In this document: in pieces, positions 38,521-63,489 of the stretch
Layout of the letters: the number at the start of each line of letters is the position of its first letter
Numbering within the stretch: position 1 is the stretch's first letter
Origin: Polytrichum commune
Taxonomy: Eukaryota; Streptophyta; Polytrichopsida; Polytrichales; Polytrichaceae
NCBI GenBank assembly: GCA_950295325.1
Contig: OX485808.1
Location: forward strand, 35,239,180-35,303,179
Reading direction: 5' to 3'
DNA length: 64,000 nt
Notes under the pieces: generated by a model
What the model saw: the letters and a program-made list of their open reading frames with translations, nothing else
The model's database searches: none
Told to the model about the DNA's origin: nothing
Program-made: the position numbers and the translations under genes

Positions 38521-38588
38521 GACAAGGTACGGAAAAATCATTTCCCAACTCAGCTATTCATCAGCTTTACTTCATCGAGTAAAGCCTT

Positions 38589-38667: not shown

Positions 38668-38704
<37 letters not shown>

Positions 38705-38882: not shown

Positions 38883-38962
38883 TTTGTGCTTAAAATGTTT
38901 AGGTTGGTTCTTGCATTCTTCATGAATCCTTCTCGTCTATCTTTGAAAATTATCTCATGATT

Positions 38963-39239: not shown

Positions 39240-40231
39240 CAGGTGTACCTTCGGCAACAAACCCGCCCTCTCCTTCCCAACACCCCATTCCAAACCCTAA
39301 ACTCAATAACCAATGAGATTTGACTTCCACTCTAGGCAATGACTAGGAAATTAACAATAAGAAGATATTAGGTCAAATAATTACTTCTAGTGTGGGTTGG
39401 GACTCCACTTCTTCTTCAATGACTTGGATATCAAGCCTTGTTTCACTAATAATTTGCACATCCTCATGTGCATAGATGTCGGGTTGTTCCGTATCAATCC
39501 CATCTTTGAGGAGGTCCGCGTCTTCAAATGTTAGAGTTCGTGTGGTCGCACATATGCCGTGTTTTGTAATTCTAGTCAAATTCTTCCCCATCCTCGACCG
39601 CTCTAATGCTTTCCGCGTCGAATACTTGGAGGATCCTTTCCGTCTGCGTTTCTTCAAGGGAGTTGAGAACTGTGAATGTGCGGACACATCTTCATTGAAC
39701 ATTTGCACAAATCAAATTGGAAATTAATTTGCAAAACAAATAGAAATTGAACATCTCATGTTTGATTGTTGTTTTGCTTCAAGAATGATTGTCCCTCCTC
39801 CACATCCATGTATATTTAATGTCATCATATATTAGCATAACAACAACCACAACAACAACATGCCGTAACTATTGGAATCTTAGGGTTTCACATTTTCATA
39901 CGTCATAGCTTATTTTTGGCCGTCACACATTTTCAATTTGTGTATAAATACATTGTATGTAGTGGCATTCTTATTTAAGATATATAAGAGCCTTGCATTA
40001 TTTCAAATCCTACTTGAGTTGTCATTGCAATATTTCTAAGTTTTTAAAAATGTATGCCACGTGAATTCTAATAATGGAATCACTAGTACTATTCAAATTG
40101 TGTTATGAATATACAAAGGTTGCAAATATGTATTGTTATTTTTGTTTGTGTCTATATTATTTAATGTCTATGTCATGCATCATTTCCATTCTTCGTTCTT
40201 ATGAGTTTGCATTGAATTTATTTATCTTCCG

Positions 40232-42406: not shown

Positions 42407-42670
42407 TGGTAGTTAAGTGGTAGTTAAATATATATTAACGAGCTCTTCCCCATGCCTTTAGGATATCTCTAAGTGCAGTTAAATAGTGGTCTCTACTTAC
42501 GTGGGAGAACTACGTGTAGAACCACAGTCATCAACTAGTAGTTAACTCCCTTTACCTTTAGGACTGCTAGAGCACTCAGGGTAGCACCTCTAGTTTTATA
42601 GTAAAGGAGTCCCAGTTGAATGAGAGGTTGTAAATAAATATAAAACAATAAATATGTAATACACGTTACA
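42407..42670 (-). repeat. Chromovirus 3' LTR, 264 bp
   Basis: On the minus strand it starts TGTAACGTGTATTACATATT and ends TTAACTACCA, with TG..CA ends. A polypurine tract (TGGGGAGGTG, 42671-42680) directly precedes it. The target flank at 42402-42406 is CCAAC; the partner copy is outside the window. Confidence 0.78.
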
Positions 42671-42880
42671 CACCTCCCCACTTAGGAATGAACGTCCGCG
42701 TTCATGAATGATCCCAAATCGTAGTGCATCAAGACAAATATAGTCAAGACCACCATTAATTTAAGCGAGCCATGGGATCTGTATCTGCACCATGCTCCAT
42801 GCCAATTGGCAGGGTGAAACAAGTTAATAATAACACCCCGTTTACCGGATCTTGTGCGGGCCGGAGAGAACAGAAGGCGC

Positions 42881-44650
42881 CTACCCCGAAGATACCTTCC
42901 GCCTCAAACGTTTTTGCGCAGCTGGGGTTTCGCGGTCACGCTTAACACCATGGCGTATAAGTCTATCCTCAGACTTTGCTACCGCATCCCAATACTCCTT
43001 GAGGACTTCTACACTCAAGTTGCATTCGGGCTCCCATGAATTATGCTCAAGTGCATATCCGAGCCATTTGATAAGATAGAATTTCTTGGGGCGAGAACGA
43101 GACCCTCTATCTTCGTGTGAAAGCACGCGTTCTACTTCATAAGATGCATCTTCCTCAAAGGCTGGCGGAGGGGGAGGTTGTACCCTACCATCGGCTACAT
43201 AAGGCCTAAGAAGTGACACATGAAAGACATCGTGGATCTTAAATGTATCTGGCAGTTGCACGCGGTATGCTACCACCCCTATCCTTTGCACCACCCAAAA
43301 TGGGCCAATCCACCTTGGTAAAAACTTTCGAGCCCCTGGGACCTTCAACTCAATGTTGGCAGTACTTACTAGCACTTGCTGGTCCACTTCGAACGAGACT
43401 TCTCGTCGGTTTTTGTCAGCATAGAACTTTTGTCGTTGTTGCGCAGCAATGAGATGTTTCTTGGCCTCGCCAATTACATGTGTCATATGCTCGACAAAAT
43501 TCTGCGCAGCAGGGATTTGACACCTGCTGTTCCCACTAATTGGTGTCCGGGGCTGCTGACCATAGTTCAGGACAAACGGAGTATTCCGTACAGACTCTTG
43601 CCAAGAGCTATTATATGCAAATTCAACTACTGCAAGGAATTCATTCCAATCATCTTGCACTGGGTTGACATAATGCCGCAACATATCCTCCAGGATACGG
43701 TTTATCCGTTCCGTCTGCCCATCAGTTTGAGGATGGAATGCGGTGGACATGGCCAACCTTGTCCCCAAAAGACCATGCAACGCATCCCAAAACCTACTTG
43801 TGAATCTAGCGTCCCTGTCGCTTAGGATTACCCTGGGTAGACCATGCAACTTATATACATGATCACGGAATAACCTTGCCGTACCTTCAACAGTAACGTG
43901 TGTGGTGGTTGGCATAAAGTGGGCCATCTTGGACAACTTATCCACGCACACAAAGATGGCATCATAACCATTAGCAGATGGAGTCAATCCAGAGATAAAA
44001 TCCATGCTCATTACTTCTCAATTTCTATCAGGAATCTCCAATGGTTGTAAAAGGCTTGCTGGTTTAAGAATAGGGGCCTTACTCCTTTGGCAAATCTCAC
44101 AAGATTTTATATAGCTTCTGATGGACCCTTGCATCTCAGGCCACCAAAAGTTTACTCGCACCCTTTTATACGTCTTAGTTACCCCTACATGACTGCTATA
44201 CATTGCATCATGATACTCACGGAGCAAAAATGACCTGATATTCGATCCTTGGAATGACACATCTGGAACCACAACCGCCTTTTCATACCACCAGATGTGA
44301 TTCTCATAAACAAAATGTTTCAGATTGTGCGGGTTTGAGAACCAAGGATCAAGAGCATACCCGGCAATGATAGTTTGATATAACTTCTGATCACTGATGA
44401 ACTCCGGGTACCCCTTCGGATTGTTGTCTTGCTCAACAGGATCACCTCGCCTAGCGTCTGCAGCCACCATTTGAAGGACCGAATTACTTGGAGCAGACCG
44501 CGGTGCCATCAAGGCTGGCTGGTCACCCGGGTCTAGTGGATTCCGACTCAGAGGATCTGCCATATTAATCCTTCCTGGTCTATACACCCATCTATAGACA
44601 AAATTTTACTCCAAAAACTCCAACCACCGAGCTTGACGCCTTGATAACGT
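42881..44650 (-). pseudogene. Chromovirus pol: zinc finger, integrase, chromodomain
   Basis: The N-terminal fragment is the end of RNase H (MYRPGRINMADPLSRNP). Next is the integrase HHCC finger (HDAMYSSHVGVTKTYK..CEICQRSK) and the integrase core with three acidic residues (SMDFISGL, LSDRDARFTS, TDGQTERINRILEDML). A GPF/Y-like module (GPFWVVQRIG) and FKIHDVFHVSLLRPYV follow. The C-terminal chromodomain has YEVERVLSHEDRG and FYLIKWLGYALEHNSWEPE. One TGA at 44018 replaces the usual Trp before the integrase SMDFI (TGG to TGA). The 42881-44011 part is fully open, so decay is light. A chromodomain may steer insertion to heterochromatin (family knowledge). Confidence 0.9.
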
Positions 44651-44666
44651 CTGTTGTGTTTTTAAA

Positions 44667-44840
44667 GGGAAAAACTATTTTGCGAGCGGTGAGTGGTAAG
44701 TTTTCTAGAATATTAAAATTTTGTGTGGTGAAACATGCCCTATTACCGCGGTGTAGAGCTAAATTTTGAAATATTTATTGACAAATTTATTGACAAAAAG
44801 AACCTATAACCGTGGTTGAGGAACCTATACTGTATTTGCT
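44667..44840 (+). repeat. Left terminal region of PMU-2
   Basis: Nearly the same as 60393-60570 over about 170 bp, including TTATTGACAAATTTATTGAC and CCTATAACCGTGGT. That identifies both as the methylase-side end of the family. Confidence 0.88.
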
Positions 44841-44849
44841 TGCTATACT

Positions 44850-45170
44850 GACTCCATAAATTTGAAATCGAATCATTGGTATCAATTTGGGTCTCGACAT
44901 GCCCAATGGCTTAGATTTCATGTTCGGTCTCGGCATGGCCACTTTGGACAAGGCCTAGGGGTTTTATGTTTAGGGTGAATTAAAGTTTATGGTTTCCGGT
45001 TGAATGTGGGCATGCCATGTTTGGGTTTCATGCTTAGCTACATTCAACCTGACTCCATAAATTTGACATCAAATCATTGGTTTCAGGTTGAGTCTCGGCA
45101 TGCCAAGTGGTTCAGATTTCATGTGGGAGTGGCCACTTTGGATATGGCCTCGGATTTCTTGGGGTTTGAT
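44850..45170 (+). repeat. 201-bp tandem duplication in PMU-2
   Basis: GACTCCATAAATTTGA..ATCGAATCATTGGT at 44850 repeats at 45051, each followed by TCTCGGCATGCC-like words. PMU-3 lacks this expansion, so it arose in PMU-2 only. Confidence 0.6.
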
Positions 45171-45682
45171 GTTTGATTTGAACCAAAAACATAGGATGAT
45201 GTCCATATTTATGCACAAGCCTTTTTTGGGTTATTCCATTCTTCTTCCATTCTATCTTCTGATTTTTTTATTCTTCCATTCTTCTTCCAGTCTCTCTTCT
45301 TATTTTTTGTAATTCTAAAAAACGTATTGATATTCTATACTTATCATCTTTAATTTTTTGGTTTAGTTTTTTGGTTTAGTTTTCCTTAGTCTTTGTTTCA
45401 TGTTTTGATCTATATTTTTACAACTACATTTCTTTATGTTTTTTGGGTTTTGTTTTGAATTTTGTGACATGGATGATGCTATGGTGGATAATGAGGTAGT
45501 TTAATTGTATGTCTTATTGAATAATAGAGTGCAAGGAGGGTGTAGGGTAAGAGTGTAAGAAGGCATTACAAAATATAATTCACTGTCTAAGGAAAACCAT
45601 GAAGATTACCGCACTAAACGGACAATTAACAATCAAATGCAAAAATATATTATTATACAAGCAATAAGACACAAAATTCTAC

Positions 45683-48057
45683 CTAAGACATATAATCGAA
45701 ATCACAATTATTAGATAATGCTACAGAGACTTTAGAATCTGTACTATCTGCATCTGAAGAACCTTCATCCTCAGACTCAATAGCTTCTAAATCAACATAC
45801 TCTATACCGCTTAGCATCAACTCCTTAGGTCTAAATGTACGATATGAACCTTCCGCTAATTCATTGGCAACGTCATTTGCGTATGAAGGGAGCCGCCATG
45901 ACTTTGGAGGGCTTGGATAGAACTTAGGGTCCCAAAAAAAAGGGCGGTGACTAGGGTATCTCAAATTACCGCTTCTGCAAATGCAAATGGCAACATGGTC
46001 ATAAAACCGCCTCATATGAAAGCAAATAAGAAAATATATCACTAGTAGTAGAAATAGTAGCTATACTCACTTACTAAACCTTGACTTCTTCACGATCTTT
46101 TGAACAACAATGATTTCGCTATCTGGATCCTCTGACATGACAACATCTCTTGATTTCACTTCTATGGCCAAAGCAGATCGAATTAGAGGAGCGATCAAGG
46201 CTTCAAAAATTGCCTTGTCAGCCTCTAATGCCGCAATGTGACGGTTCACATTGCGGCACGCATGAATAGAAACTCCTGCAAAATAAGAAAACAATGAAGT
46301 TCAGATCTCAAACAACATAAAAATTAATTAACATTAAATGGTCAATGGTTATTTACTTAAACATGAAGAGATGTTCAACGTACCCGTAGCTGTAGAGCAG
46401 TCTAGAACAATATCCCCGGGTGAAGAAGATGCCTGAATGAGCATTTGTATAAGGGCGAGGGATTTTTCGCGAGGACCACGCCAAGGGGTGGATCCATCCA
46501 TTAACTGATCCTCCCTTGACACCAAGTTCTAGAGAATGTCATCCCGTGCCACATCAACCCCGTGACGGTCTAGTGCAGGGATGTGTTGAAAGCAAAATCT
46601 GGAAGCACGCACCTCCGGAATGCTCCTCACAACTAAAGTTATTCCAAACCTCATGGTCTGCAGATTACAAAAACAATTAATTACTTTACTTACGAAATAA
46701 GATAAAAATCATTAAGCACATTCCAGCAAATGAAATGGAAGATTAGTTTCACAAGATTAATAACATAAGATACATCTATCAATCAAATTAGCAATAAGTC
46801 ATATCATAAAATAAACTCACAGTCAAGACTGGATTAATTGGGGACGTCAGGTGAAGCTTGTTCATCCCCCACCACTCTTTGCGAACAGCAAATCCATACG
46901 TGGAACAGTACCCAAGAATGATTGACTTTGTAGACATTCGAAAATGATGGAACAAAATTATCGCCCCATCGTCTTGGAGGTGATGGTCTGCGAAATCAAA
47001 GATTGTTTGAAACCAATCCTCAGGTTCTATGTTCCAGGTGGGAATAGACGAAGGTGGATTCGAAATTCCTGGAACATGAAGGCCCTCTGGAAGATCTGCA
47101 AGAATCAAGTCCACATAGGGTACTTCCGCAGCAGATCCTTTGTAGCGTCGGCCTTTGTCACTTGAGTGTTGCGCATGAAAATAAATTTATCAAAACTCCG
47201 ACAAGAAAATCAAAGATTGCACACATTCTAACTTGACACCGTTCTGAATTAATGTGAATCAATTAATTGACTTCGAGATCAAATACATGAGAAGGAGATG
47301 TGAATGTAATGAAATCGCATATAACATACAAAAACAGATAGAAGTCAATGACTTAAGCAAGTGCTGAAGTTTTCATACAATGAAAACTAACAAAGAAATG
47401 TGTTGAATGACATTGTAATGAGAATGATGACCTACGAATGATTGAAAGAAACTTGAGAACTCATTCATGGGACTCCGCAGCTTGAGAATTAGAATTGAAT
47501 GAAAACATAAACAAAACAAAGTTGTTGAGCAGTATGGTACCTTAGAAATGAAGCTCTTTAACTCGTCATATAATGGACTCAAGCTGCCCGTGTCGCCACC
47601 AAGGACTTGCTCTAGTGAGAAGTTTTTAATCCACTCCCCAACTTGGCCATCATTATCCTCAACCGATGTGAAAACATGGATTCCTTGGCTTAACTGCTCA
47701 TAGGAGGAATCCTCTAGACTGAATTGGAGCATGAGAACCAGAGTCATATGTAGGACTAGGCACAGGTGGGCTCTTACATTCTGGCTCTGGAGGGGGGTTC
47801 ATCTTCTTCGTCCCCCTCTTGTTAGTCTTCTCCAGAAAGTTGTGGAGTTTTGCCATCTCTTTCTGGGCCGCTTTCTCCTCAGCTTCCTTCACCTTAAGCG
47901 CTTTCTTCCTATCTTCTTCTAGACGTCGCGAGAGGGCCTTTGCCCTCTCGTGCTCGTCTTCAATGCCCTGTAAATCAACCATCTCAACACAAGACTCTCC
48001 AACTGCATCCCTCGACTTCATAAGTTCAGTTTCAAAGGAGGGAGTGAAACTAGGACC
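45683..48057 (-). pseudogene. ParB-methylase gene of PMU-2, methyltransferase half
   Basis: This continues the exon at 60215-60392: the frame reads CGPS there and PSFTPSFETELM here. Parts in order are: a charged coiled coil (EDEHERAKALSRRLEEDRKK, about 47830-47970); a linker with an apparent one-base frameshift near 47715; the motif IV exon (47165-46825, VDLILADLPEGL); the motif I exon (46660-46430, SPGDIVLDCSTATG); an exon with SIHACRNVNRHIAALEADKA (46277-46075); and a C-terminal exon (45977-45683, PSHRPFFWDPKFYPSPPKSW, acidic tail). Decay signs are TAG for Gln near 46530 and CAA where copy 3 has the splice-acceptor CAG near 47155. The layout matches beta-class amino-methyltransferases. Confidence 0.75.
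48049..48057 (-). repeat. 9-bp target duplication, PMU-3 right-end side
   Basis: ACTAGGACC, which is GGTCCTAGT on the gene strand. The matching copy is at 60384-60392 in the opposite orientation. Confidence 0.88.
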
Positions 48058-48514
48058 AGGACGAAGCTATTTTGCGAGCGGTGAGCGGTGAGCGGTAACT
48101 TCCGCGATATTTTGATTAAAATGTTATTTTAAGGGATAAATTTAGGGTATATTTGGACTAAATGTATTTTAAGTAATTTTTTTCTAAACTTAGTGAACAG
48201 TGGGACCTATGACCGTGGACAATTAAGGGCTATGATATAGGAAAAAATGTTATTGTATCAATGAAAAATATGGTTTAGGGTGTTAAATTGAACATTTGGA
48301 ACTAATATCAGTAATAAATATGGGTTTGTCTCAAGTCAAACACGTACTGTTTCAGTACAAGGAGAATTAGTGGTACTCCAAAAAGGTCACGCAACTTTGG
48401 AAAAGAGAAACACATGTGGTGCGTCAAATGTCTTGTAGTGGCCCTTTTAGTATCACTACATCATGATTATAAAAAATCTTGCATACATATGTTTCTTTAA
48501 AGAAACTAAAAACT

Positions 48515-51500
48515 CTAAGAGTCAAGGTACTTCAATAAACCAGCCTCCAAAACTCGCTTCACTTCGTTGAAGCTAAAACTAGCTGCATGAATGAACGTGT
48601 CTGAATCTGAGTCCAAACCACACACTACAATAAACAAATAGTACAAATGCTTACAGTTGGCCCATTGACCCCTTTTTCCAATTTCTTTAGTCGCCATCTC
48701 CTTGAAGTTAGGACAAGTGCATGCTGGCAGCTGCGAAATCGTCAAGTAGTATTGCTGAACCTTTGGGGGCGTGCCGGAATCCAAGGAGACGATGCATCCT
48801 AAGGCAGGGGCTGGAAGCATGCACAGTTTGTGCACTTTGGCTTTCAGTGATAGGGCTGAGGCACAATTATTGGCGTGTTTTGTTGACGGGGCCTTTTTGT
48901 TGCGCCTAATCAACTTCCTTGAACGCCGGGTGGGAAACTCATCCGGATATGCAGGAGTCGTGTAGCTTGCTAAGTCCAAAGGTAACGGGTGGTCCTGAAA
49001 AATTCTGGAAAGTGTCATCTCCTTCCGCTGGGGCAGTCTAAATCTTGCGTTTTCTAAAGAGAGGATCTCTTTGCAGGTTAAGTTGGTCCCCAACTTAACC
49101 GGCCATACCTCCGGAACGTTCGGGACTGAGACCACCCACCTCCTTTTTGTACCCTTAACGCATCTCTCAATGTCGTCATTACAGAAAAAGAAGTCTTGAG
49201 GGTCCAATCTCTTCTTCCGATAGTTATCCATGAGGCCTGAGTAGGTAGGTGCAGCGGTGCTCTTCCCGTCTTGTACAATCCGAGCGACGCATTTCTTCTT
49301 GGTGATTGCTTGTAGAGCAAAGCAAGCCTTCGCAGATGTCTTAGGCAACCGTGCGATGTGCCACTGGGCAGGGTTGCATAATGTCTCCTCAATCGCGGTG
49401 ACGTGGTGCCGATCCACCCGCTGCGGAGCGTCGTGTGTTGGAAATTGCGGTTGGTTTTCATCTGCAGTTGTGGGAGAATATGGAGTTGTGGGAGAATCTG
49501 GAGTTGTCACAGGAGGTGGAGAATCGTTCAGTCGGGCAGATCTGGTTTGGACGCGTGGTCGGGATATACTGATCTTGTCTGGCCTGTGAGATTCACGTTC
49601 GTCACCGAAAGTAGTATCCGGTTTACGCTTCAGAGAAACAAATACCTCTTCCCCTTCGAGGTGGGGAGTCCTGGTGCACCACTCGTCACCGCTTGGCATC
49701 TTCAAGATGGCCTCATGCAGCGGTTTCGAGATTCCTGTTTTTACGGCAGACCTCTGAGCACGCCTCAGCTTCAATTCCTCCTTCGACGGTCCAGTTCCAG
49801 GGTTCTCTCCCTTCAGGAATTGGGAATATGCTGAGCACTGCATGAAAGCACGCACGAAGTCATCGATTGTTGCCACATAAAGGTCGATGCCCCGATCGCC
49901 AGATTGTTGCTTCCACTTGTTGTGGATAGATTCAGCAAGGTTACAGGATGGCATTTCCGCTAGTTCAGCTTCACTTAGATCCTGCAATGCCCATACAGTC
50001 CGAATTAGAATAATGGCGGAATCAATGTAGTTGAAGCATAAAGTGGGAACTATACAGGAAATATAGAGGGAAGCATAGACTTACCAACTCCATAAATCCA
50101 CCCCATTGGCGGTAACGGAAATGCCAGAAGGCCAGCCAGAGCTCCAGTCGAGGTAGACCTTGTTCAGTTGCTGCCCCGGATGACATCCACCATGCCCGAA
50201 TTGCCAAATACTTTGTCTCGGCCTCCGCCATCGATTTTGCATTCTTGTATTGCTGGCATAGTATTCGATGCTGATGTTGCAGGTCTTGACGGATATCGGC
50301 CTTGGTATGTTTCTCCAAGGACTGCGTCCAATGGAAAAGACAAGTCCTCTCTCTATCCACCATCTTCTCAGACACATCTCCACTTCCGTAAATGATTCGA
50401 ACAGCATTCCAGTTGGCTTGGGCACTGTCGGCCATGAAACCTTTAAAATTGACTTTGTCCACTCCATGTTGAGCCATGAGAGCGTTCAGGTTCTTCCATA
50501 CGACTGACTGGGCTGCAACATCTTCAGACTGCATGTCGCATACTGCGATGGTCATGACACGGCAATATGTGGAATCGTACACATGGCAAGCCATTGTCGT
50601 CCACGACCTGACACGTTTGACATGGTCAAACATTATCCAGGAGTTCTCCAAGTCACCACCGGGTTGCATTCGTTTGACAAGGTCGACTCCGCTGCCCGGT
50701 CCAACTTCAGACATCTTGAAGACAAAGACCTTGTCCATGTCCGCTCCTTGCCCTGGAAACCTATTCTGTTGCACGAACCTCCAATTGCTAGCACCGCGTA
50801 ACTTGGTAATACTGTCCATGACTCCAAAGCGACGCATAGTCCTGAACGTGGTGACTGCGTTACGAATGTTGGGCGAGGTGAGGTGCTTACACCGATCGAA
50901 AATAACTTGCAGCTCGTCCAGCTCCAAGATCTTTTGTGGGTCACCTTCTTTAGCAAGGAGGAGTGGGCCCAGTACTTCCTTTGCAGTTTCAAGCACAATA
51001 GCGGAGCGAGTGGCTGATGGGGTGCGTTCGACTTGATCCCCAATCAAGGTGTTTGTCAAATCGATGAAGTCCCGATGATCACCTGACTTGACGGGATGGT
51101 CGTGAGATCCCAAGTGCACACAAACCCTCGTCATGTGAGGTGTCGCGGTAACATAGTAGATCTTGGCAGTGCAGACAACAACACAGGTGGGAGGGACGTT
51201 ACATGATTTGCAAACAACAGTCGAACCAGTTGGAGGCTTGGAACCCACTTCAAACAATTTCTCAGATAATCCTTCCCACTCTGTTTCATTCACTTTGGAA
51301 ATCCTATGGTCTCGCTGAAGATACTCACAGGCAGGATTGTCGCAACGGAGGTGGCCCAAACAAGAAGATGCACGAAACAAAAGCTTCAGATCATTTTGAA
51401 TATTGGATGTAATTGTGCGAGTCCAAGCATGGCCATCGTACCTTCTATCCATTCCACGAAGCAGCTTGGCCTTTGTATTATGGCCATGGTCACCTAAAGG

Positions 51501-52156
51501 TGGAAACTCGAAGATAACGTCCCCATCGTAACGAGGAGGAAGGTAATCAACCTGCTGGAGTCTAATCGCATCAAAGTTAATTCGAGATAACACACTTTTG
51601 GACCGCTTACGAGCTCCAAGGCGCATCAATGAATGAATGATACTGACAACATGACTTGTCACAACATTGCCTCACCAGGATTACGATACGGACTAACAGG
51701 AGGAGTTGTTTCCTTGCGAACTACTTGTGGAGAGAGCGAAGCTGGGACTTTCCTCTCTGATTTTAGGAATTCAACATCGCCGTCGGAATCATCACTCAAC
51801 TCATATATTGTATTTAGACCGGGCTCAATTTTGACCCTAGCCAGCACCGGTCTCTCAATGCTCACAGTGGACGACTCCTTAGGTGTTAGAAGTTCAGTCA
51901 AACACTCTAACATAGACTCTGAGACTCCATATACACGATATTTTCCAGGCTTCAGCAACCAGAACGCACCGACGTCATTCTCTACCCTAGTTTGACGAAT
52001 TGCATGTGAAACTAGACCAGTATGATCGATAAAGATAGTGACCTCACGATATTGAAACCTCAAACTCAATGTTGCACAAGTGACTATAGCATGACCGTCT
52101 TCACCTAATGGAAAGAGGACCGGAACAGAATGAGGTTCAGCATGAAGCAGGGCCAT
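48515..52156 (-). CDS. PMU-3 transposase (Mutator-like) with SWIM zinc finger
   Basis: Start MALLHAEPHSVPV at 52156; a TATA-like ATATATAA lies at 52212-52219. The N-terminal region runs to SDDSDGDVEF. A frameshift or small deletion near 51660 follows; copy 1 is open there. The zinc-ligand region (GHLRCDNPACEYL, VCKSCNVPPTCVVVC, HLGSHDHPV) leads to a DDE-type core (DHVKRVRSWTTMACHVYDS, FKGFMADSAQANW, ERTCLFHW). A 103-bp GT-AG intron (50084-49982) joins FMEL to DLSEAELAEM. After it come SCNLAESIHNKWK and a C-terminal SWIM finger (PACTCPNFKEM..WANCKHLYYL). Middle and C-terminal parts are long and open. If the frameshift is real the copy is inactive. Confidence 0.8.
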
Positions 52157-52510
52157 AGTATACCACAGAACTCTGAACAAAACAAGTACTGTGAACATTG
52201 AAATGGCATGAATATATAAGAGGGAACAAATTACTGTGCAAACTGGTAATTTATGTACCAGAAAGCGGAATTTCAGAAGTTAATAGAGAGACATGGAGAA
52301 TAAGCTGAAAGACGGCTGAAAAACCATTTTTGGATGCAAGTCCCAGATAGGTAAGAAACCGAATAGTATAATCCTATAACAAGCATACATTCTAAACATT
52401 GATGATTATATTATATATTGGCAAATAAGGTCATAAGAATGACGGCCGCCAAGAATAATGTGGAGAGCATGATAGTAGCTCGGCAATAATATTAGAATGC
52501 TACATTGTGA

Positions 52511-52939
52511 TTAACGACGAAGACGCTTATGGGGCCCTTTGCCATTTTTGTCACCGTCATGTTTATGACAATGGTCAATCCCTAAACTATGAACTGCAGT
52601 GCATCCTGCGCAACCGAGTCCCTGACCTTGGGGACGTGGGGCGTGCCTTAATAGAGATCTAGAGTAAGTGCCTGGTTTAATAACCCCTACTCTAGAATAG
52701 GCATGAGTCTGTAAAGTAGACTTGTCCTCTATCAGCGTTGCAACATCCGTCTGCAAAGATGGAGTCCGGGGATGTGGACTCTGAACTGCGACCGCCGGAG
52801 TAACTGAGCAGTAAGGTGGGTTTAGAATCTTCATGTTGTTGACGTCTGGAAAACCATCAATCGATGATGTGGTGTGGATTTGTGATGAACTAGGAGCACG
52901 TAAAGGAGCAAGGCTCGGGAGACTTGAGTCAGTACCCAT
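52511..52939 (-). CDS. Small PMU-3 protein of 142 aa, unknown
   Basis: ATG at 52939 (MGTDSSLPSLAPLRAPSSSQ) with a TATA box on the minus strand (GTATATAATA, 52991-53000) about 55 bp upstream. The protein is Ser/Pro-rich. Its C-terminal part has clustered Cys/His (GCAGCTAVHSLGIDHCHKH) that could bind zinc, and it ends in a basic tail (GKGPHKRLRR) like a nuclear signal. It is on the same strand as the transposase, 355 bp upstream. No counterpart was found in PMU-1, so it may be a variable accessory gene or lie at the recombination joint. Confidence 0.42.
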   Translation of the reverse strand: MGTDSSLPSLAPLRAPSSSQIHTTSSIDGFPDVNNMKILNPPYCSVTPAVAVQSPHPRTPSLQTDVATLIEDKSTLQTHAYSRVGVIKPGTYSRSLLRHAPRPQGQGLGCAGCTAVHSLGIDHCHKHDGDKNGKGPHKRLRR

Positions 52940-52990
52940 TGGAGAAGAATTTGATGAGATGAGATGAAGGAATGGGTACAAGTAATCGGG

Positions 52991-53000
52991 TATTATATAC
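52991..53000 (-). promoter_or_regulatory. TATA box for the small PMU-3 gene
   Basis: GTATATAATA on the minus strand, at a fitting distance from the ATG at 52939. Confidence 0.45.
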
Positions 53001-53328
53001 ACCTAGGGTAGACAGCAATGCCCGAATATTTGATAACATGATAGATCAATTAATAGTCAATAGTTAATTATGTAAATTTTGGACAACCTGTTTCATGTAT
53101 GAATAGAATGTACTACAATAGTAGTCATCCCTTTATCACCACGAATTATCTGACATGGAAGGATACGATTATGTAGAAAAGGATTTAGCGCCGCCTTTTG
53201 TAGTGTATTAATGCAGGGTGGATTAACAAAGGATCAATTTAAGTAAGTGCAGATTAACTATCTAAATACAAGAAAATGTGAACATAACGATGGCGCATAG
53301 ATGTTAATTCTGACAGACTTGAAAATGA

Positions 53329-53336
53329 TATATAAG
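53329..53336 (+). promoter_or_regulatory. TATA box for the PMU-2 ParB-methylase gene
   Basis: TATATAAG lies 29 bp before ATG 53365, so transcription should begin just ahead of that codon. This supports 53365 as the start. Confidence 0.5.
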
Positions 53337-54239
53337 ATCTGTTTGCTCCAGATGTTTGTTAGAGATGAACACTAGGTCGAGAGCAAGAGCAGAACGAGAA
53401 GTAAGGAGGAATAGTGAGAAACAGAGGCGGATTGAGAGAAGGCAAAGGTTAGAATCAAGAGTAAGCTTAGGGACGCCGTACAATTTGCGGACAACAATGG
53501 GTAGAAGAGAGGGGTTACTTCTTCTAAGGGTACAGGTAGAGGTTCCAAAGGGGAAAAGACGTTTGATGTTGAAGCGGTAGCTCCCATCGTTTTATTTCCA
53601 GTAAGGGAGGAAGACAACCCAGATGACAAAGGGGGCAGTGAGGTGTTGTTTATCAAAAATCCTCATGATATTGTTTTCTTTAAAAACGTAATGTGAACCA
53701 CTCTCACGGATAATTAGAATAGGTGAGACCCAATAGCTTTCCATTATGTTGTTTCTTATTTTTGGTGATGGAATGTAAATAGGATTTGGATTGGGCATCT
53801 GGAACAGGGAATGACACAGATACAACTTCAACCTGGGGCAGCCTCGAGTGCCTCAACATCGGATCATAGTGAGCAACAGGTTTGTGAAGATTGTTTTCAA
53901 TTGGTGACTTCTATGGTTTTGGGATTAGGGTAATGTTTCTATCCAACGAAAATAGTTTATTCACTGAACAGGGACTCGGAGATTTTGATCGGGACATAGC
54001 TGACCTTTGCGAAGGGACCATGGATAATGACGAGATGCACTTCGAGGAAGAGGTAGGCTCCTTGAATCTGTTTTCTGATGTAGGGTTCGAAGAGAGACAT
54101 TTGGAGACCCGAGCCAGATTTTTGGACACCCGAGAGAGAATTTTAGCTAGAGCGCCACTTGCCACTTGTGGCTATCGGGCCTGAAATCAGATTTCTGAAA
54201 GCCAGCATTATTCTCCAAAGTGTGTCAGGGTTCCGAGAT

Positions 54240-56820
54240 ATCCTTTGGGGGGGTCTAAAGTGGGATGAATTGAGTGTGAAGTGAGATTAGGGTACACTTT
54301 GGTAAGGTTGTGATTAGACCTGAATCTGATGTGAGTGTGAATTTAGTTTAGGTTAGAAGTCAATACGGTTGTGATAAGGCCTGAATCTGATGTGAGTGTC
54401 AATTCAGTGTTGGTTTGATGTTGCTTAGGTTATGAATAGGCCCGAAATGTGATGTGATTGTGAAGTGAGGTAAGGTTAGAAGTTGACAAGGTTGTGATTA
54501 GACTTGAATCTGAGGTGAGTGTGAATTCAATGTTGGTTAGATGATGCTTAGGCCCGAAATCTGATGTCAGCGTGTAGTGAGGTAAGGTTAGAAGTTGATA
54601 AGGTTGTGATTAGGCTTGAATCTGAGCGGAGTGTTACTTTAGTGTTGGTTAGATGTTGCTTAGGCCCGAAATCTGATGTGAGTGTGTAGTGAGGTAAGGT
54701 TAGAATTTGATAAGGTTGTGATTAGGCCTGAATCTGATTTAAGTGTGAAGTGAGTTTGGGTTATATATAGCTTAGGTTGTGATTAGGCCTGAAATCAAAT
54801 TTTTGAAAGACACATTTGTTCAAAATAGTGTATCTCGGTCCCGAGACACCCTAGTAAGTGTGAAATCAATTGGGTTATGTGTTGCTTAGGTTGTGGTTAG
54901 GCCTGAATCTGATTTAAGTGTGAAGTGAGTTTGGGTTATATGTAGCCTAGGTTGTGATTAGGCCTGAAATCTGATTTAAGTGTGAAGTTGGTAAGGCTTA
55001 TATAAGGCCTTAAATCAAATTGTTGAAAGCCACATTTGTTCAAAATAGTGTGTCTCGGTCCCGAGACACCCTAGACAAGGGTATTAAGTGGGTTGAATTC
55101 AATGTGACATCAATTGGGTTATAAGTTGAAAAGGTTGTGATTAGGCCTCATTCTGATATAAGTGTGAAGTGAGTTTGGGTTATATGTAGCCTAGGTTGTG
55201 ATTAGGCCTGAAATCTGATTTATGTGTGAAGTTGGTAAAGGTGATATAAGGCCTGAAATCAAATTGTTGAAAGCCACATTTGTTCAAAATAGTGTGTCTC
55301 GGTCCCGAGACACCCTAGACAAGGGTATTAAGTGGGCAGACTTCAGTGTGAAATGAATTGGGTTAGAAGTTGATAAGGTTGTGGTTAGGCCTAAATCTGA
55401 TTTAAATGTGAGATGAGTTTGGGTTATATGTAGCCTAGGTTGTGATTAGGCCTGAAATATGATTTAAGTGTGAAGTTTGTAAGGCTGATATAAGGCTTGA
55501 AATCCAATTTTTGAAAGTCACATTTGTTCAAAATAGTGTGTCTCGGTCCCGAGACACCCTAGACAAGGGTATTAAGTGGGCTGAATTCAATGTGACATCA
55601 ATTCGGTTAGAAGTTGAAAAGGTTGTGATTAGGCCTCAATCTGATATAAGTGTGAAGTGAGTTTGGGTTATATGTAGCTTAGGTTGTGATTAGGCCTGAA
55701 ATCTTATTTATGTGTGAAGTTGGTAAGGCTCATATAAGGCGTGAAATCAAATTTTTTAAAGTCACATTTGTTCAAAATAGTGTATCTTGGTCCCGAGACA
55801 CCCTAGACAAGGGTCTTAAGTGGGCTGAAGTAAGTGTGAAATCAATTGGGTTATATGTTGCTTAGGTTGTGGTTAGGCCTGAATCTGATTTAAGTGTGAA
55901 GTGAGTTTGGGTTATATGTAGCCTAGGTTGTGATTAGGCCTGAAATCTGATTTATGTGTGAAGTTGGTAAGGCTCATATTAGGCCTGAAATCAAATTTCT
56001 TAAAGTTAGCTTTGTTCAAAATAGTGTGTCTCGGTCCCGAGACACCCTAGACAAGGGTATTAAGTGGGCTGACTTCAGTGTGAAATCAATTGGGTTAGAA
56101 GTTGATAAGGTTGTGATTAGGCCTGAATCTGATATAAGTGTGAAGTGAGTTTGGGTTATATGTAGCTTAGGGTGTGATTAGGCCTGAAATGTGATTTAAG
56201 TGTGAAGTTGGTAAGGCTTATGTAAGGACTGAATTGTTCAAAATAGTGTGTCTCAGTCCCGAGACACCCTAGACAAGGGTGTTTAGTGGGCTGAATTAAG
56301 TGTGAAATCAATTGGGTTAGATGTTGCTATGGTTGTGATTAGGCTTAACTCTGATTTAAGTGTGAAGTGAGTTTGGGTTATATGTTTCTTAGGTTGGGAT
56401 TAGGCCTGAAATCTAAATTGTTCAAAATAGTGTGTCTTAGTCCCGAGACACCCTAGACAAGGTCTTAACTGTGCTGAACTATGTGTGAAATGAATCTTGT
56501 TAGGATGTTGGTAAGTTTTTTGTTAGGCTTGAAATCAACCTTTATTGTGAAGTGAGTTTGAATTGGATGTTGGTAATAATGTGATAAGGCCTGAAATCTG
56601 AAAGTCGGTTTTCTTATCAAAACTTGATTTGTGTGTGATTTCAGTGTTGGTGATATGATTCTTGGATTGTAATTAGGCCTGATATCTGATGTGAGTGTGA
56701 ATTTAGTTTACGTGCCAAGATGTTGATTACGCCAAAACATATTATTTGACTTTGAATTTAGTTTGGGTTAGTTGTTGGGAAGGTTGTGATTAGGCCTGAC
56801 ATCAAAATTGAAAAATTAAG
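54240..56820 (+). repeat. Intron tandem repeat, about 243-bp unit with a 20-bp palindrome
   Basis: Units contain GTGTCTCGGTCCCGAGACAC (9-base arms, 2-base loop) near 54829, 55051, 55293, 55538, 55780, 56024, 56248 and 56430. A GTTGTGATTAGGCCTGAATC module occurs twice or more per unit. The array fills the intron between the exons at 53972 and 56838. Confidence 0.9.
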
Positions 56821-58619
56821 CATTGGATTTTCCGCAGAGGTTGGGAGCTACCGATCTTGAAACTTACATTTCAAATGCTATTGAAGGCTTAATGGACCAT
56901 GATGAGCAGAATGTTGGGGAAGAGGTAAGTACTCACGTAGTTAAATAATGTGTGAATTAGTTGTACCTTATGCCATGCAGCTTTGTGTCTTAAATACATA
57001 CCTGTGTTTTGTAGGTAGAGTGCCCCACCCCCCAGGACTCACCGGCAGCGACTTAAGCTTCAAGAGAAACTGCAATTGATCTTGACAGTTCTAATGAAGG
57101 TCAGGATGAGGATGAAGAGGGGCTTGGAGATAAGGATGCGTTTGACGGGGATGAAGATGAACTTAGATCCCGTCAGAAATTTAATTCCGTGGCCATGATC
57201 TCTCAATTGAGAGTCAAACCTTTCAGTTCATCGAGGTTCAATATTCCTTTATGTACAATGTTTGCCATGCCTATGGTAAGGCCAACACTCTCAACTGATC
57301 TTGATAAATTAGAGCAAGAGTTTGTCCATGGGTATAGAGAGGGCTCCTCGGTTTTTTATGTGACATTAACAGATGAAGAAGGCAAAACACAGGAGGTGTC
57401 TGAAACTGATAAGGCATCCTGGGGTCCCATTTGGAATTCAAAAAATCAAGAATTTAATTCCTATCTTCAGTCTGTTCCGGAGTTAGCCGGTTTCAAGGAT
57501 TTGATGTTCTTTGTATGTGACGGTAACCATAGGCGTCAGGCTTGGTTAAATCATATTGAAAGACTTCACAAAACAGATGAGGCCTGGCATTATATGGTGG
57601 ATAGCATCCTACTTGACACAAAAGGCAAAATTGGAGTTGTTATGCAAGTGATGCATAACATCAACAAGTAAGTTTTGTTAATTAATTTTTATTTCTTTCT
57701 ATGTAAAATACTTCTTGTTATACCATTAATGTCATGTGCTAATTCGCCATTTTTTATTGATAATTTCAGGCATACTGAAGACTCTCACGGCAAGACCAAC
57801 TTTGTTCACACCCTTTTTAGGATTCAAAAGTATGGTCTTATGCCAATCGAACATTATCAAGACATATTGACTCCATCGGAGTTCAAGAGGTGCAAGAGAA
57901 CTCAAAATGCCAAAAAAACTTGGTACACATTGAATCTTCAAGTATTCACGAACTTCATCTTCCGGGTATGATCTCTATAATATGTATTGCATTGTTTTAA
58001 TCACTAACATATTGTCATTATCTAAAATCAAATGATCACCTAGGTTACAGTATACTTGGATGACTAATTAAGTCTACCCCTGTGCAGCATGAACTTGGAC
58101 TTGCTGCAGATGAGGGTGTTCGACAACTTGTGGAGCAATCAGATGTAGAAGTGTCCGCCGCTGAAAAAGCAACCGCTATGAAAGTTGCTGCAAAGAAAAG
58201 AGCCAAGGCACTTCATAAGAAAATGTCGAAACTAGTTGCTCTGGCAAACCCGGACTTGACGGATGGATGGCTTCGAGAGGTATAAACTCTACTTTACAAG
58301 CACATTTTTCAATCTTCATGTTCTTTAATGACCCCTGAGATTCTAATAAATAGCTATATGTTTCGCAGATTGGACGTCATTATAGTCTTAACTCAATTAC
58401 ACCCGAGCTCAATATGGAGAAATTGCAGTTGATTGTTACTACAAAAGCATTGGCTGCTTCTAAGGTTAAATGGTTGGAATATTTAAACTCCTCTGCATCT
58501 ACACGTGAGGCCCGCAAACTGCCCCCTAAGCCCACCAACGAGGAGAAACTGGGTGCATTTCTAGCTAAGGCGTGCTTTTGGGCCGGAGTGAGTTAATACT
58601 TCCCAATCAATTCGTTTAA

Positions 58620-59810
58620 TATGTTTGTCTTGAGGCCTGAAATCTGTTTGGGTTATATGTTGCTTAGGTTGTGATTAGGCCTGAAATCAAATTTATGACA
58701 TTAAGATTTGGTCAACAAGGGTCTTAAGTGGGTTGAATTAAATGTGAAATCAATTGGGATAGATGTTGCTATGGTTGTGATTAGGCTTGAATCTGATCTA
58801 AGTGTGAACTGAGTTTGGGATATATGTTGCTTAGATGGTGATGATGCCCGACAGCTGATTTCAGTGTCAAGTGAGTGATGGTTAGACTTTGGTAAGCTTG
58901 TGAATAGGCCTGAATTTGATGTGAGTGTGTAATCAGTTGGGTTAGATGTTGCTATGGTTGTGATTAGGCTTGAATCTGATTTAAGTGTCAAGTGAGTTTT
59001 GGTTATATGTTGCTTAGGTTGTCATTAGGCCTGAAATCTGATTTAAGTGTGCAGTTGTTAAGGTGTTTAGTAGGCCTGATATCAAAATTCTGAGAGTAAG
59101 ATTTGGTCAATAAGGGGTGTCTCGGTCCCGAGACACCCTAGACAAGGGTCTTAAGTGGGCTGAAGTAAGTGTGAAATCAATTGGGTTAGATGTTGCTATG
59201 GTTGTGATTAGGCTTGAATCTTATTTAAGTGTCAAGTGAGTTTGGGTTATATGTTGCTTAGGTTGTGATTAGGCCTGAAATCTGATTTAAGTGTGAAGTT
59301 GTTAAGGCTGCTATAAGGCCTGAAATCAAATTTCTGAAAGTCAGCTTTGTTCAAAAAAGTGTGTCTCGGTCCCAAGACACCCTAGACAAGGGTCTTAAGT
59401 GGGCTGAATTAAGTGTGAAGTGAGTTAAGATTAGAAGTTGATAAGGTTGTGATTAGGCCTGAATGTTGCTTAAGTGTGTCTAGGTCCCGCCAAGGGTCTT
59501 AAGTGGGATGAATTGAGTGTGCAATCAATTGGGTTAGATGTTGCTATGGTTTTGATTAGGTTGAATCTGATCTAAGTGTGAAGTCAGTTGGGTTAGATGT
59601 TCCTAAACTTATGATTATGCCCGAAATGTGATTTTAGTGTCAAGTGAGGTAAGGTTAGAAGTTGATAAGGTTGTGATTAGGCCTGAATCTGATTTAAGTG
59701 TGAATTGAGTTTGGGTTATATGTTGCTTAGGTTGTGATTAGGCCCGAAATCAGATTTGATTTTGAATTTAGTTTAGGCTAAATGTTAGTCAGTTTGTGAT
59801 TAGGCCTCAG
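58620..59810 (+). repeat. Second array of the same repeat in another intron
   Basis: The same GTTGTGATTAGGCCTGAA and TCTCGGTCCCGAGACACC modules (59121, 59362) in the intron between the exons at 58369 and 59873. The repeat has spread between introns of one gene. Confidence 0.87.
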
Positions 59811-60383
59811 CTGAATTGTACATATGCGCTTATTTGAATTCGGGGAGCTTCTATTATATTTTCTTTCCACAGATATCCGACCAGGCTTCCATTATCTATG
59901 AAGAAACAGTGCGTCAAGATAGACTGGTTATCAACTTTGAAGTGCCCAGCGAGCCCTTATCCTTGGTTGCATACATCGAGGATTGTAGAATGAAGTTATG
60001 GGACAATGCATTCCCCACCTTCTTCCGAGGGCAGGATGCTTTTAACAAAACTCACGAATTTGAGGGCTTCAAAGGAACTGACTTGATTGTGAGAAGAATA
60101 CTCTTTCGGTAAGATTTATCCTTCTCCAACTAGAACTCTTATTGATTTGGTTGTTCACATGACATGTATTTTGATTGCAAGGTATATAACGATGAGGTTT
60201 TTTTTAACCCGCAGGTATTTCAAGTACGAGCTCCTTGCAAAAGGAGCAATAACAAAAGAAGATCTCCCAATATTTCTCTCTACATGGCTTGACAGGTCGA
60301 ACTCAACGTGCATGTTCTCAGCAAATCAGCAGCGGACGTGGTCTACCTCGCATCTCACAGGAGGTGGATGGTACCTCGACTGT

Positions 60384-60392
60384 GGTCCTAGT
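60384..60392 (+). repeat. 9-bp target duplication, PMU-3 left-end side
   Basis: GGTCCTAGT just before the PMU-3 left terminus. It pairs with ACTAGGACC at 48049-48057. Confidence 0.88.
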
Positions 60393-60570
60393 GGGAAAAG
60401 CTATTTTGCGAGCGGTGAGCGGTGTGCGGTAAGTTTTCTAGAATATTGAAATTTTGTCAGGTGAAACATGCCCTATGGCCGTGGTGTAGAGCTAACTTTT
60501 GAAATATTTATTGACAAATTTATTGACAAAAGAACCTATAACCGTGGTGGAGGAACCTATATAGTATTTG
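60393..60570 (+). repeat. Left terminal region of PMU-3
   Basis: About 170 bp nearly the same as 44667-44840, including GTGAGCGGTGTGCGGTAAGT and CCTATAACCGTGGT. Confidence 0.88.
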
Positions 60571-62020
60571 CTTGCACCTTCTTGGAGGTTCAGGATATTA
60601 CCTGACCACGACAATTTCATGACAACCTCTAGCAATTTAGCAAGTAAGATTCCATCTATTGTGGTGAGGGAATCTCCAAACCCCAATGCTGCAGGCCTCA
60701 CACGTAATGCCCATGAAGACCCATCCGTTTGTATGTGTGTGTATATATATATATATATGAGGATAAACTTAAAATGTTGAAAGAAACTTAAAGAAAATAT
60801 TAAAGAAATTGAAAATGTTGGAAGTGTTTACAACATGTTCCTCTAACAACAACACCTTACTATATACCACTCAAATATAGGCGGTTATTTAAGAAGAGCA
60901 ATTGTGTTGAACATAAAACCTAGGATGATGTCCATATTTTAAGCACAAGCCTTCTTGGTTTAACACTCAACACAACTAGGAGGTCTCGAGTCATCATTTA
61001 AAAAAATTAAATTCTTCACTTTGACTTATTATAACCTTTGCATCTCAACTTCAATTTTGAAACATGAAATAAAAATTTTCTTGGTTCTCAGTCGCTAGCC
61101 AAATGGGAAAATTATGATCCAATCCAATGACCACAATTCTATGTGAACTTGGAAGTTTTTGACATTAAAATTGCATATTCTAACCTCATTTGGAGTATAT
61201 CTATGATCATGAGTCTAAAGTAAATTATGTCTTAATAATTAAAAACCTAAGCGATATTAAACAATAAACTTTTTGTCACCTTCAACTCATAGTATTGCCA
61301 TAATGTTTGATCCTTGATTGGGATTAAAGTTTCCTGACACCTACTAAAGGGGAGAGCAAAGAAACTAATTATCATGTAGAACATGTGAATGATTGGTCTA
61401 AACCCAATTAACACCTTAATCAAGATCAAAGACCTTGAATTATTCTAGTAGAATTAACTAGAGATGGATCTATATGTACTAAAAGTTTGTTAGACCGCGT
61501 TGAAGTATGCAAGGGGAAGATATTCTTGAGCATACCAATGTCAAGTGTCGTTGGTGTACACTTTAGTCAACTTGTAGACCATTGTGTAATATAGGTGTGC
61601 ACTTCATATCATTGTGGAACATACTAATGCCGAGATATTAGTCAAGACACTTGAATGCCAAATTTCATGAGGTGACATTAATGGTGAGGTTGATGGTGAA
61701 TTATTCAACCCAACATTCGCCTAAAATCGTAAGCAAGCATTGAAAAAGTATATGAAAACGATAATAGAAGATTAGTGGAAACCCTTAAATTTCAAAGAGA
61801 AGGGTATGAACTAATAGGCCGATTATGGAATTAAGTGAACAATATCAGAAAACACGAAGTCAAAAGTTAACCTAAATCTGCAATTTTATATATGCAATCC
61901 CATAAATTCCAAAAGTAATACAAATACAATGAATTTCATGTGGAATGAGTGCACAAACTGAAAAACCAACGGAAGAAAAACCGGTATATTAGATAGTACA
62001 CAGACATTCACATGAAGGTA
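60571..62020. other. PMU-3 interior without gene
   Basis: AT-rich, with a TATATATATATATATA run near 60744-60758. GGATGATGTCCATATTT near 60925 matches 45195 in PMU-2. No coding frame is supported. It is probably the 3' flank of the ParB-methylase gene. Confidence 0.5.
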
Positions 62021-63489
62021 TTACATCATATCCGAATCACTGTGATCACGTGATGATGAAGGCATTCTAGAATCACTAATATATGCATCAGAGGAGGCCT
62101 GACCATCTGATTCTAAAGCTTCTATATCCAAAAACTCTAAAACTCTTCCCGGATGATATTTAGATGTAAAAGTCTGATAAGAACCTCCAGCTAGTTGATT
62201 AGCAATAACATTTGCATATATAGGAAGTTGCCAAGACTTTGGAGGGCTGGGATAGAATTTAGGGTCACAAAAAAAAGGCCGGTGAATAGGATAGCTCAAT
62301 TTATCGCATCTGCAAATGCCAATGGTACCATGTTCATAACTCAACTTTAGAAGAAATGACAGCAAAAAACATAACACTGGTAAGAGAATTTGTGGACCAT
62401 ACTCACTTAGTAAACCGAGATCTCTTCACAATCCTCTCTACGGGGATATCTTCACCCTCAGGATCCTCTACACTGGTGACACGGTCTTCAAGAGTGACTT
62501 CAGAGGCTGCTCTAGAGATAATCAATGGAGCAAGTACGGCCTCAAAAATATCTACATCAGCCTCTAATGCCGCAATGTGACGGTGCACATTGCGGCATGC
62601 ATGAATGGAAGATCCTGCAAATAAAGAAGTTGGAAAAACTTAGTACAAAAACCACTATGAATTTTGTAGAACAAAACAATATTAACAATTAACCAACTGA
62701 AATGCAAGATTACAAAGACATACCGGTCGCTGCCGTGCAGTCTAGAATAATATCCCATGGGGAGCTACATGCTTCAATTAGCATTTGCATTAGAAGCACA
62801 GACTTTTCACGAGGCCCTCGCCATGGTGTGGATCCATTAGTTAGCTGGTCCTCACGAGAGACCAAGTTCTGGAGAATATCATCCCGTGCAACATCCACCC
62901 CATAAGGATCCAATTCAGGGACATGGCGAAATGAAAACCCCGGCACGCTCCTGACCGCCAATGAAATACCGAACCTCATGGTCTATAATGTACCAGACAT
63001 AAAGATCAATATTACTTTACAAAGTGAACAACAGAACTGCGTGAGTATAATAGTTAGGTGGGTCTACACTCAGAACTACCTCAAGGATGAAATTGAAACC
63101 GAATGCGGTGATCAGAAAGAAGACTTAAGCTTTATCTTACAGTTGATGCTGGATTTATTGGAGATGTAAGATGAAGGCGGTTCATTCCCCACCACTCTTT
63201 CCGAATTGCAAAACCATACGATTTGCAATATCCAAGAATATTGGACTTCGTACTCATGCGAAAAGGGTGAAACAAAATAATTGCCCCGTCGTCGTGCAGA
63301 TGTTCGTCGGCAAAGTCAAAGAGTGGTTGTAACCACTCTTTCGATTCTTGATTCCAAGCGGGAATGGACGACGGTGGGTTTGATATGCCAGGAACAGGAA
63401 GACCTTCCGGTATATCTGCAAGAATCAAGTCCAAACAGGGATGGTCATCCGGAGAACCCTTGTAGTGCCGGGTTTTGTCTTTTGAGTGC
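62021..63489 (-). CDS. ParB-methylase gene of PMU-3, methyltransferase part (partial)
   Basis: Best preserved copy. Exons: 63489-63150 (HSKDKTRHYKGS, LDLILADIPEGLPVPG, then WWGMNRLHLTSPI); 62982-62723 (WRGPREKSVLLMQMLIEAC, DIILDCTAATG); 62616-62410 (SIHACRNVHRHIAALEADVD, then the basic VKRSRFTK); and 62308-62021 (PFFCDPKFYPSPPKSW, acidic Ser-rich end). No stop is seen in these exons. In beta-class amino-methyltransferases the pattern is DPPY (motif IV), a gap, then KP..L...I..S..GD.VLD.F.GSG..A...GR..G.E (motif I). Here the second part matches closely, but DPPY reads DIPE and FxGxG reads TAATG. Activity is therefore uncertain. The gene starts beyond 64000. Confidence 0.75.

Follow-up and report, generated by a model that had tools for sequence, protein, structure and literature searches.

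Three nested transposons with a composite gene

We examined a 64-kb stretch of the genome of the moss Polytrichum commune (contig OX485808.1, positions 35,239,180 to 35,303,179 of the forward strand; "the window" below) and found three transposable elements with terminal inverted repeats (TIRs), here called E0, E1 and X, nested one in another. Besides a transposase gene, each carries a second, intron-rich gene whose product comprises a ParB-like N part, a coiled-coil-like stretch and a beta-class amino-methyltransferase C part, as assigned from sequence. In all three elements both genes lie between TIRs bounded by 10-bp target-site duplications (TSDs), and the second gene has been under purifying selection in both of its halves. 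The window is part of contig C6 of a 407.8-Mb assembly in 64 contigs, of which contigs C1-C7 measure 42-78 Mb each. The adjoining 20 kb to its right were added, giving 84 kb in total, and positions above 64,000 are in these extended coordinates.

The ParB-like and methylase parts belong to one gene, because the reading continues in frame across a hAT-like insertion in E0, across X in E1, and without interruption in X; two separate genes are ruled out by the continuity in E0 and X. In E0 the exon phases agree, by eye, across the insertion. The ParB-like half of E1 runs in frame up to the TSD of X, and the reading resumes in the methylase half (GPS/FTPSFETE). In X the gene is whole and uninterrupted on the minus strand from 69.1 to 62.0 kb, with several stops and one frameshift in its ParB-like part, a third ParB-like copy that lies just beyond the window at 64.9-69.1 kb. 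The parts of the gene in the window are as follows; the splice borders of C1 were chosen by hand, and its list starts at the first exon identified.

20495-21547, minus strand: M0, methylase exons identified in E0 (21547-21200, 21098-20831, 20697-20495), with two in-frame stops
34959-37401, minus strand: C0, ParB-like half in E0, damaged, with a G-N-H-R box near 37010
45684-47168, minus strand: M1, methylase exons of E1 (47168-46821, 46657-46384, 46275-46071, 45974-45684), with one stop and the first acceptor AG altered (by eye against M2)
47540-48048, minus strand: charged, coiled-coil-like segment between the ParB-like and methylase parts of E1, with one frameshift
57060-60392, plus strand: C1, ParB-like half in E1, six exons (57060-57667, 57770-57965, 58088-58279, 58369-58587, 59873-60108, 60215-60392), open through all six (543 amino acids), with the DGNHR box at about 57519-57533
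62021-63488, minus strand: M2, methylase exons of X (63488-63141, 62982-62724, 62614-62407, 62309-62021), open, 367 amino acids, with D-I-P-E at motif IV and ILDCTAATG at motif I

A first-pass annotation made from the letters alone had counted three methylase-type and two ParB-like copies in the window, and the copies listed above bear this out. Its observation that the gene has a fixed place in the element also holds: the distance from the end of the last identified methylase exons to a TIR is about 0.65, 1.0 and 1.6 kb, and the transposase is divergent from the second gene both in E0 (40205 on the plus strand vs 37401 on the minus strand) and in the present layout of E1 and X (52160, minus, vs 57060, plus). 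The DGNHR, D-L/I-P-E, ILDCTAATG and H-I-A-A-L-E-A-D text that it had read is present, the coiled coil being recognised by eye. With the gene placed between TIRs and TSDs, a fixed host gene outside the element ends is excluded for the three elements. Towards its 5' side, the E0 gene has at 38587-39244 a duplicated segment (copies 94% identical) with an inverted match, 38831-38884 / 39191-39244.

Domain assignments

The methylase assignment (beta-class amino-methyltransferase of the PF01555 type) is solid. Unspliced single exons give almost nothing in Pfam, and only once spliced does M2 match PF01555, at E = 1.5e-5 (25.5 bits, just below the curated cut-off of 26.7). Spliced M2 also matches PHROG 3008 (methyltransferase, E 2.3e-7), DpnA in the PDB (E 9e-6) and a CcrM-type NCBIfam model (E 0.0016, far below that model's cut-off). 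In tblastn searches with the methylase we obtained 301 phage records at E<=1, of which 25 cover at least 80% of the query, all less than 60% identical, and 56 plasmid records. The likeness to phage methylases scores 52.8 bits against at most 25.8 in 500 shuffles, the three phage proteins having been picked beforehand as top matches. A six-way alignment with these three proteins places LDLILADIPEG on VDMVLCDPPYG and ILDCTAATG on VMDFTMGSG. The motif I aspartate, the T-G and the acidic residue in H-x-x-A-x-E-x-D are retained, as in an S-adenosylmethionine (SAM) pocket.

The ParB assignment of the N part draws on a weak profile match and a G-N-H-R box. The box reads DGNHRRQAW in C1 and X and EGNHRVTAW in C0, and we take D-G-x-H/R-R to be a ParB/Srx-like signature. 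The spliced protein matches PHROG ParB 1033 at E=0.0062 over 28 residues, and the exon alone at 0.13. A tblastn search of phages with the ParB exon gave five records, all at E 2 or worse and over DNA ligase.

Past selection

For the methylase halves M1 and M2, dS is 1.061 and dN 0.223 over 365 codons, stop codons excluded, a ratio of 0.21 (pN/pS bootstrap 0.28-0.42). For the ParB-like exons of C1 and X, dS is 0.665 and dN 0.153 over 514 codons, again excluding stop codons, a ratio of 0.23 (bootstrap 0.17-0.30); this comparison takes in one exon that is frameshifted in X, which should raise dN. Comparisons with M0 are saturated at synonymous sites. The ratio of about 0.2 in both halves indicates purifying selection in the past, and the sequences are thus read as constrained in both halves while the elements diverged and damaged afterwards. 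Taken alone, the methylase exons of M2 are open, as are the ParB-like exons of C1.

Element ends and order of insertion

Element ends were defined by TIR and TSD. The elements, the insertions in them and the transposases are:

19840-83903: E0, with TSD ACAAAATTCG at 19830-19839 and 83904-83913 (second copy beyond the window)
19840-19878, plus strand: methylase-side TIR of E0
44667-77408: E1, inside the long terminal repeat (LTR) element, with TSD TGTTTTTAAA at 44657-44666 and 77409-77418
44667-44706, plus strand: methylase-side TIR of E1
48059 and 60393: ends of X, inside the ParB-methylase gene of E1, with TSD TGGTCCTAGT at 48049-48058 and 60383-60392
48059-48098, plus strand: transposase-side TIR of X
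60393-60432, plus strand: methylase-side TIR of X, directly 3' of the TSD TGGTCCTAGT at 60383-60392
40205-42306, plus strand: first part of the E0 transposase, divergent from C0 and interrupted by the LTR retrotransposon; its continuation, near 82.1 kb and thus past the window, has a CxC-x(n)-CxH (SWIM) pattern
48518-52160, minus strand: X transposase, with CxxH and CxC-x(n)-CxH present
42307-44666, minus strand: in-window part of a chromodomain-bearing Ty3/gypsy-type element that interrupts the E0 transposase
21641-34938, minus strand: hAT-like insertion, 13298 bp long and located within an E0 gene intron, with ends CAGGGTTGTC.../...GACAACCCTG and TSD CATCATTT

The 10-bp TSDs of E0, E1 and X are perfect, and each 10-mer is present at the two ends of its element and nowhere else in the 84 kb, on either strand. 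The TIRs are about 40 bp long and of the AAGCTATTTTGCGAGCGGTGAGCGGT type in E1 and X, that of E0 being more diverged, and the net lengths from the coordinates are about 17 kb for X and 15.7 kb for E1. The Ty3/gypsy-type element is delimited by a pair of LTRs (42307-42673 vs 81612-81978) identical at 361 of 367 positions (98.4%). The hAT-like insertion has CAGGG-type ends and an 8-bp TSD, an 8-mer found 12 times in the window; within it, an open stretch of 531 amino acids (31335-32927) weakly matches protein kinases (PF00069, E 5.5e-4, below the cut-off), and there are long tandem repeats, rich in C, whose period is about 21-22 bp.

The classification of E0, E1 and X as Mutator-like TIR transposons is supported by a SWIM transposase, 10-bp TSDs and TIRs. 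The TSD range of Mutator-like elements (MULEs) is given as 8-11 bp in the available part of a survey (PMC6446971), and the 10-bp TSDs fall within it. Many MULE clades have a SWIM finger, and the alignment of the X and E0 transposases contains a SWIM-type CTCP...CKH pattern, for which the Pfam search returned no SWIM match; the transposase has no match in Pfam (E<=10), NCBIfam (E<=10) or the PDB (E<=1). Both rows of the two-row transposase alignment (A4) are identical at D543, D609, C638xxH641 and E697, among which the catalytic residues presumably lie.

The first-pass annotation had treated 44667-63489 as a single element. The interval instead holds the left part of E1 together with parts of X, which was inserted in E1 and then rearranged; that X and E1 merely lie side by side is ruled out by the TSDs. 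Both ends of X point in one direction, which we explain by an inversion. Over 4306 bp, and inverted relative to each other, the X and E1 transposase halves (48057-52362 vs 77410-73112) show 99.8% identity, whereas the remaining stretches common to the two elements are 70-89% identical, which suggests, from these identities, recent recombination or conversion between the inverted halves. The layout past 64 kb (ParB-like part of X on the minus strand, transposase on the plus strand, transposase-side TIR) was predicted before that stretch was read and was borne out.

A palindrome arrayed in and upstream of the gene

The 20-bp palindrome GTGTCTCGGTCCCGAGACAC has 9-bp arms around the centre TC (GTGTCTCGG-TC-CCGAGACAC) and occurs 22 times at up to two mismatches, with 10 copies in E1 (54830-59380) and 12 in X (64025-70883), all noncoding; one more place in E1, with five mismatches, was left out of the count. 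Within the window its copies are:

54830-56451, no strand assigned: eight copies, upstream of the ParB-like exon of E1 and within tandem repeats of 61/244 bp
59117-59380, no strand assigned: two copies, in the intron 58588-59872 of C1

Counting both elements, eight E1 and seven X copies lie upstream of the ParB-like exon (intronic or 5' noncoding) and the other seven between later exons; five of the copies in X are spaced at 295 bp. No other perfect inverted repeat (8-bp arms, at most six bases between) is found three or more times in the 84 kb, and at up to five mismatches the palindrome is absent from either transposase half and from the parts unique to E0. The consensus of E1 and X is identical at 20 of 20 positions, and the 60-bp flanks in register agree at 18/60 and 13/60. 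Conservation within the arrays is 0.965 and 0.967 for the palindrome against 0.76-0.81 for the 60-bp flanks. In a comparison sample of 18 stretches amounting to 180 kb, one of which adjoins the window, we found no copy at up to four mismatches on either strand, the best being five mismatches, once.

The palindrome resembles the bacterial parS site only loosely, and the resemblance supports no claim: what we take to be the parS consensus is found at five places in the window at up to four mismatches, against four to eight in five shuffles, which is no excess. Similar exon-like stretches at 53970-54052 (GLGDFDRDIADLCEGTMDNDE...) and 56839-56923 (RLGATDLETYISNAIEGLMDHDE...) flank the E1 tandem array and are possibly a duplicated 5' exon of the E1 gene.

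Further copies and search for a donor

A fourth methylase copy, of the E0 type and damaged, was found in the 180-kb sample on contig C3 (locus L105:3134-3486). It stops about 0.7 kb short of an end that by eye looks like the E0 TIR, one that a TIR scan at 23/34 did not score, and tblastn gave no ParB-like part or transposase in the surrounding 20 kb. One further copy in 180 kb hints at many copies in the genome but cannot be converted to a count.

The idea that a bacterial or phage-type gene was taken up, with introns, by a plant transposon stands insofar as a Mutator-like family does carry an intron-containing ParB-like/methylase gene between its ends, while no donor phage or bacterium could be named. 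No close donor was seen in viral contigs or GTDB-species contigs, with plant proteins or profiles as query, in scans that tested only places matching a few short peptide patterns. A profile with the phage methylases added brought viral and bacterial methylases among the matches listed. From 83 viral loci among these matches, 66 open reading frames (ORFs) bear both methylase motifs, and none of the 66 has a ParB-type box (by regular expression) or a long N part. Two of the 10 bacterial or archaeal loci among the matches listed have an ORF bearing both motifs, with no ParB part there by eye.

Neighbouring sequence

The left 15 kb of the window may be an ordinary host gene, with an exon at 14180-14464 on the minus strand that encodes an importin-beta N-terminal domain (IBN_N, E 8.6e-10). 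Two more repeat arrays lie outside the elements, at 14409-15310 and 16061-17880. Elsewhere in the assembly, a 6-kb piece of contig C8, which is 146,561 bp long, carries ORFs that we take to be plastid rpoC2, rps2, atpI, atpH, atpF and atpA and that point to a green plant.

Comparison with known systems

The ParB and methylase pair is already known in kind, although the first-pass annotation had supposed nothing of the sort to be described: the Ectocarpus transposon Sola1-1_Ec32 encodes a ParB-like and methyltransferase protein, and comparable ones are cited from transposons of green and red algae (PMC12477816). There, a ParB-like domain and an N4C/N6A-type methyltransferase share one protein of about 1.1 thousand amino acids on the strand opposite to the transposase (PMC12477816). 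The moss elements have this same arrangement, the ParB part by weak sequence match. The hosts differ, being a Sola1 element in a brown alga in one case and a SWIM-transposase TIR element with 10-bp TSDs in a green plant in the other, with the proteins compared by description; the account in section 5 of that paper, the part available, mentions no palindromic site array. A green-lineage Mutator-like case may be among the sources of PMC12477816 (Iyer 2011, Petroll 2025). What is added here is the plant Mutator-like host, the D-x-P-E site and the palindrome array.

Among MULEs themselves, the closest parallel is VANC of the Arabidopsis VANDAL elements, an extra MULE-encoded gene whose short target motifs accumulate through tandem repeats in noncoding regions, according to the available part of PMC5735166. 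VANC is another protein and causes methylation loss, whereas here the protein is a ParB-like/methylase fusion and the site a long palindrome. The available part of the MULE survey PMC6446971 does not contain the word methyltransferase, and a review of plant gene capture (PMC13317346) mentions neither ParB nor methyltransferase. The bdelloid rotifer N4CMT is likewise a prokaryote-type amino-methyltransferase fold in a eukaryote and tied to transposons, but it is described in the available part of PMC8885841 as a host gene with SPPY and a chromodomain, not a transposon-borne gene with D-x-P-E. With the beta-class methylases (PF01555, DpnA, and those of Lactococcus phage LW81, Cronobacter phage CR3 and Enterococcus phage 9184) the moss domain shares motif IV before motif I and a domain-length alignment at 22-25% identity; these three phage enzymes differ in being free-standing, without a ParB part and with D-P-P-Y, where the moss gene has introns, the fusion and D-x-P-E.

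Discussion

We consider it fairly probable that the second gene is an accessory self-recognition or anti-silencing factor of the element. The elements are large Mutator-like TIR transposons (about 16-17 kb net) in which the gene divergent from the SWIM transposase encodes the ParB-like/coiled-coil-like/beta-class methyltransferase protein. This protein would recognise the 20-bp palindrome arrayed in and just upstream of its own gene in two of the elements, and its methylase domain, or binding alone if the D-x-P-E site is inactive, would mark or shield the element's own DNA, serving as an accessory factor against silencing or for copy control. The mode may be comparable, by analogy, to that of VANC, which also has a short motif repeated in tandem in noncoding DNA, but the domains would be of prokaryote type. 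Only tentatively do we extend this to a working analogue of bacterial ParB-parS, in which the protein would load on palindrome clusters in its own gene and mark the element chemically or structurally, giving self-recognition apart from the transposase and from host 5-methylcytosine.

Several observations weigh against this reading. The ParB-like part has no Pfam or NCBIfam match and nothing in the PDB better than E 0.3. Its AlphaFold2 models are poor, with predicted local distance difference test (pLDDT) values of 46.1 (single-sequence) and 45.3 (two-row), and a Foldseek search with the first of these low-confidence models returned no ParB among the 50 shown of 460, led by Y-family polymerases at E 0.02 or worse, a list that is unusable; the ParB fold is thus not confirmed by structure. 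In the methylase part, motif IV reads D-[I/L]-P-E in M0, M1 and M2, not the canonical [DSN]-P-P-[YFW]. BLAST with the CR3 protein sets D-[I/L]-P-E on D-P-P-Y, as in the six-way alignment, and a profile of 49 viral methylases does so in three of three copies, weakly for M0. BLAST with the LW81 and 9184 proteins sets a later S-N-P-P-S (S-F-P-P-S in M0) on D-P-P-Y, which is also non-canonical, so that under neither alignment do these sequences show the canonical motif IV. The 66 viral ORFs, among the matches listed, comprise 30 with DPPY, 19 with DLPY, 17 unread by the motif pattern and none with D-x-P-E, the scan pattern that found them having admitted E or Y at the last position of motif IV. 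An active methylase is therefore doubtful, given a glutamate in place of the catalytic aromatic residue. Every whole copy of the gene that we have seen is now broken, by stops, frameshifts, a lost acceptor or insertions, and the palindrome is absent from E0. Since the 22 copies come partly from tandem duplication, they do not count as independent events; within the arrays the nearest 20 bp on their flanks are fairly conserved too (0.87-0.89). With the sites masked, short weak matches (best E 0.018) still link the E1 and X arrays, which may therefore have arisen from one.

That the palindrome is a mere passenger of the tandem repeats, such as a slippage-promoting hairpin, and no binding site is quite possible, though we would not assume it. 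About one palindrome is present per 244-bp or 295-bp unit, and the short weak matches outside the site would fit arrays of shared origin; yet the arrays are unalike in register while the consensus site is identical at all 20 positions, and its copies are better conserved than both the wider and the nearest flanks. A different alternative concerns the gene itself, which could be a core transposition or copy-number factor, for instance a transposase partner that binds the TIR or the palindrome, with the methylase fold a dead DNA-binding module. This is unlikely in our judgement. The glutamate at the aromatic position of motif IV in all three copies, shared by none of the 49 readable viral relatives among the matches listed, speaks for it, as does the presence of the gene in three diverged elements, but the residues of the SAM pocket are kept and the sequence is strongly constrained. 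Highly improbable is a chance capture of the Pack-MULE kind that left the gene functionless in the element. Captured fragments are frequent in MULEs and the whole genes are now broken, but three elements have the gene at one and the same position (dS about 1 between the methylase parts of E1 and X, saturated for E0), both halves show dN/dS of about 0.2, and the same pair occurs in the Ectocarpus Sola1 element.

For the biology of these transposons, the finding places a domain pair reported from algal transposons in a green-plant Mutator-like element with defined ends, where conservation marks the second gene as part of the element and speaks against its capture by chance. The published self-marking idea gains a concrete candidate DNA site, which section 5 of PMC12477816 lacks. 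MULEs that face host silencing might then have a prokaryote-type route in addition to VANC.

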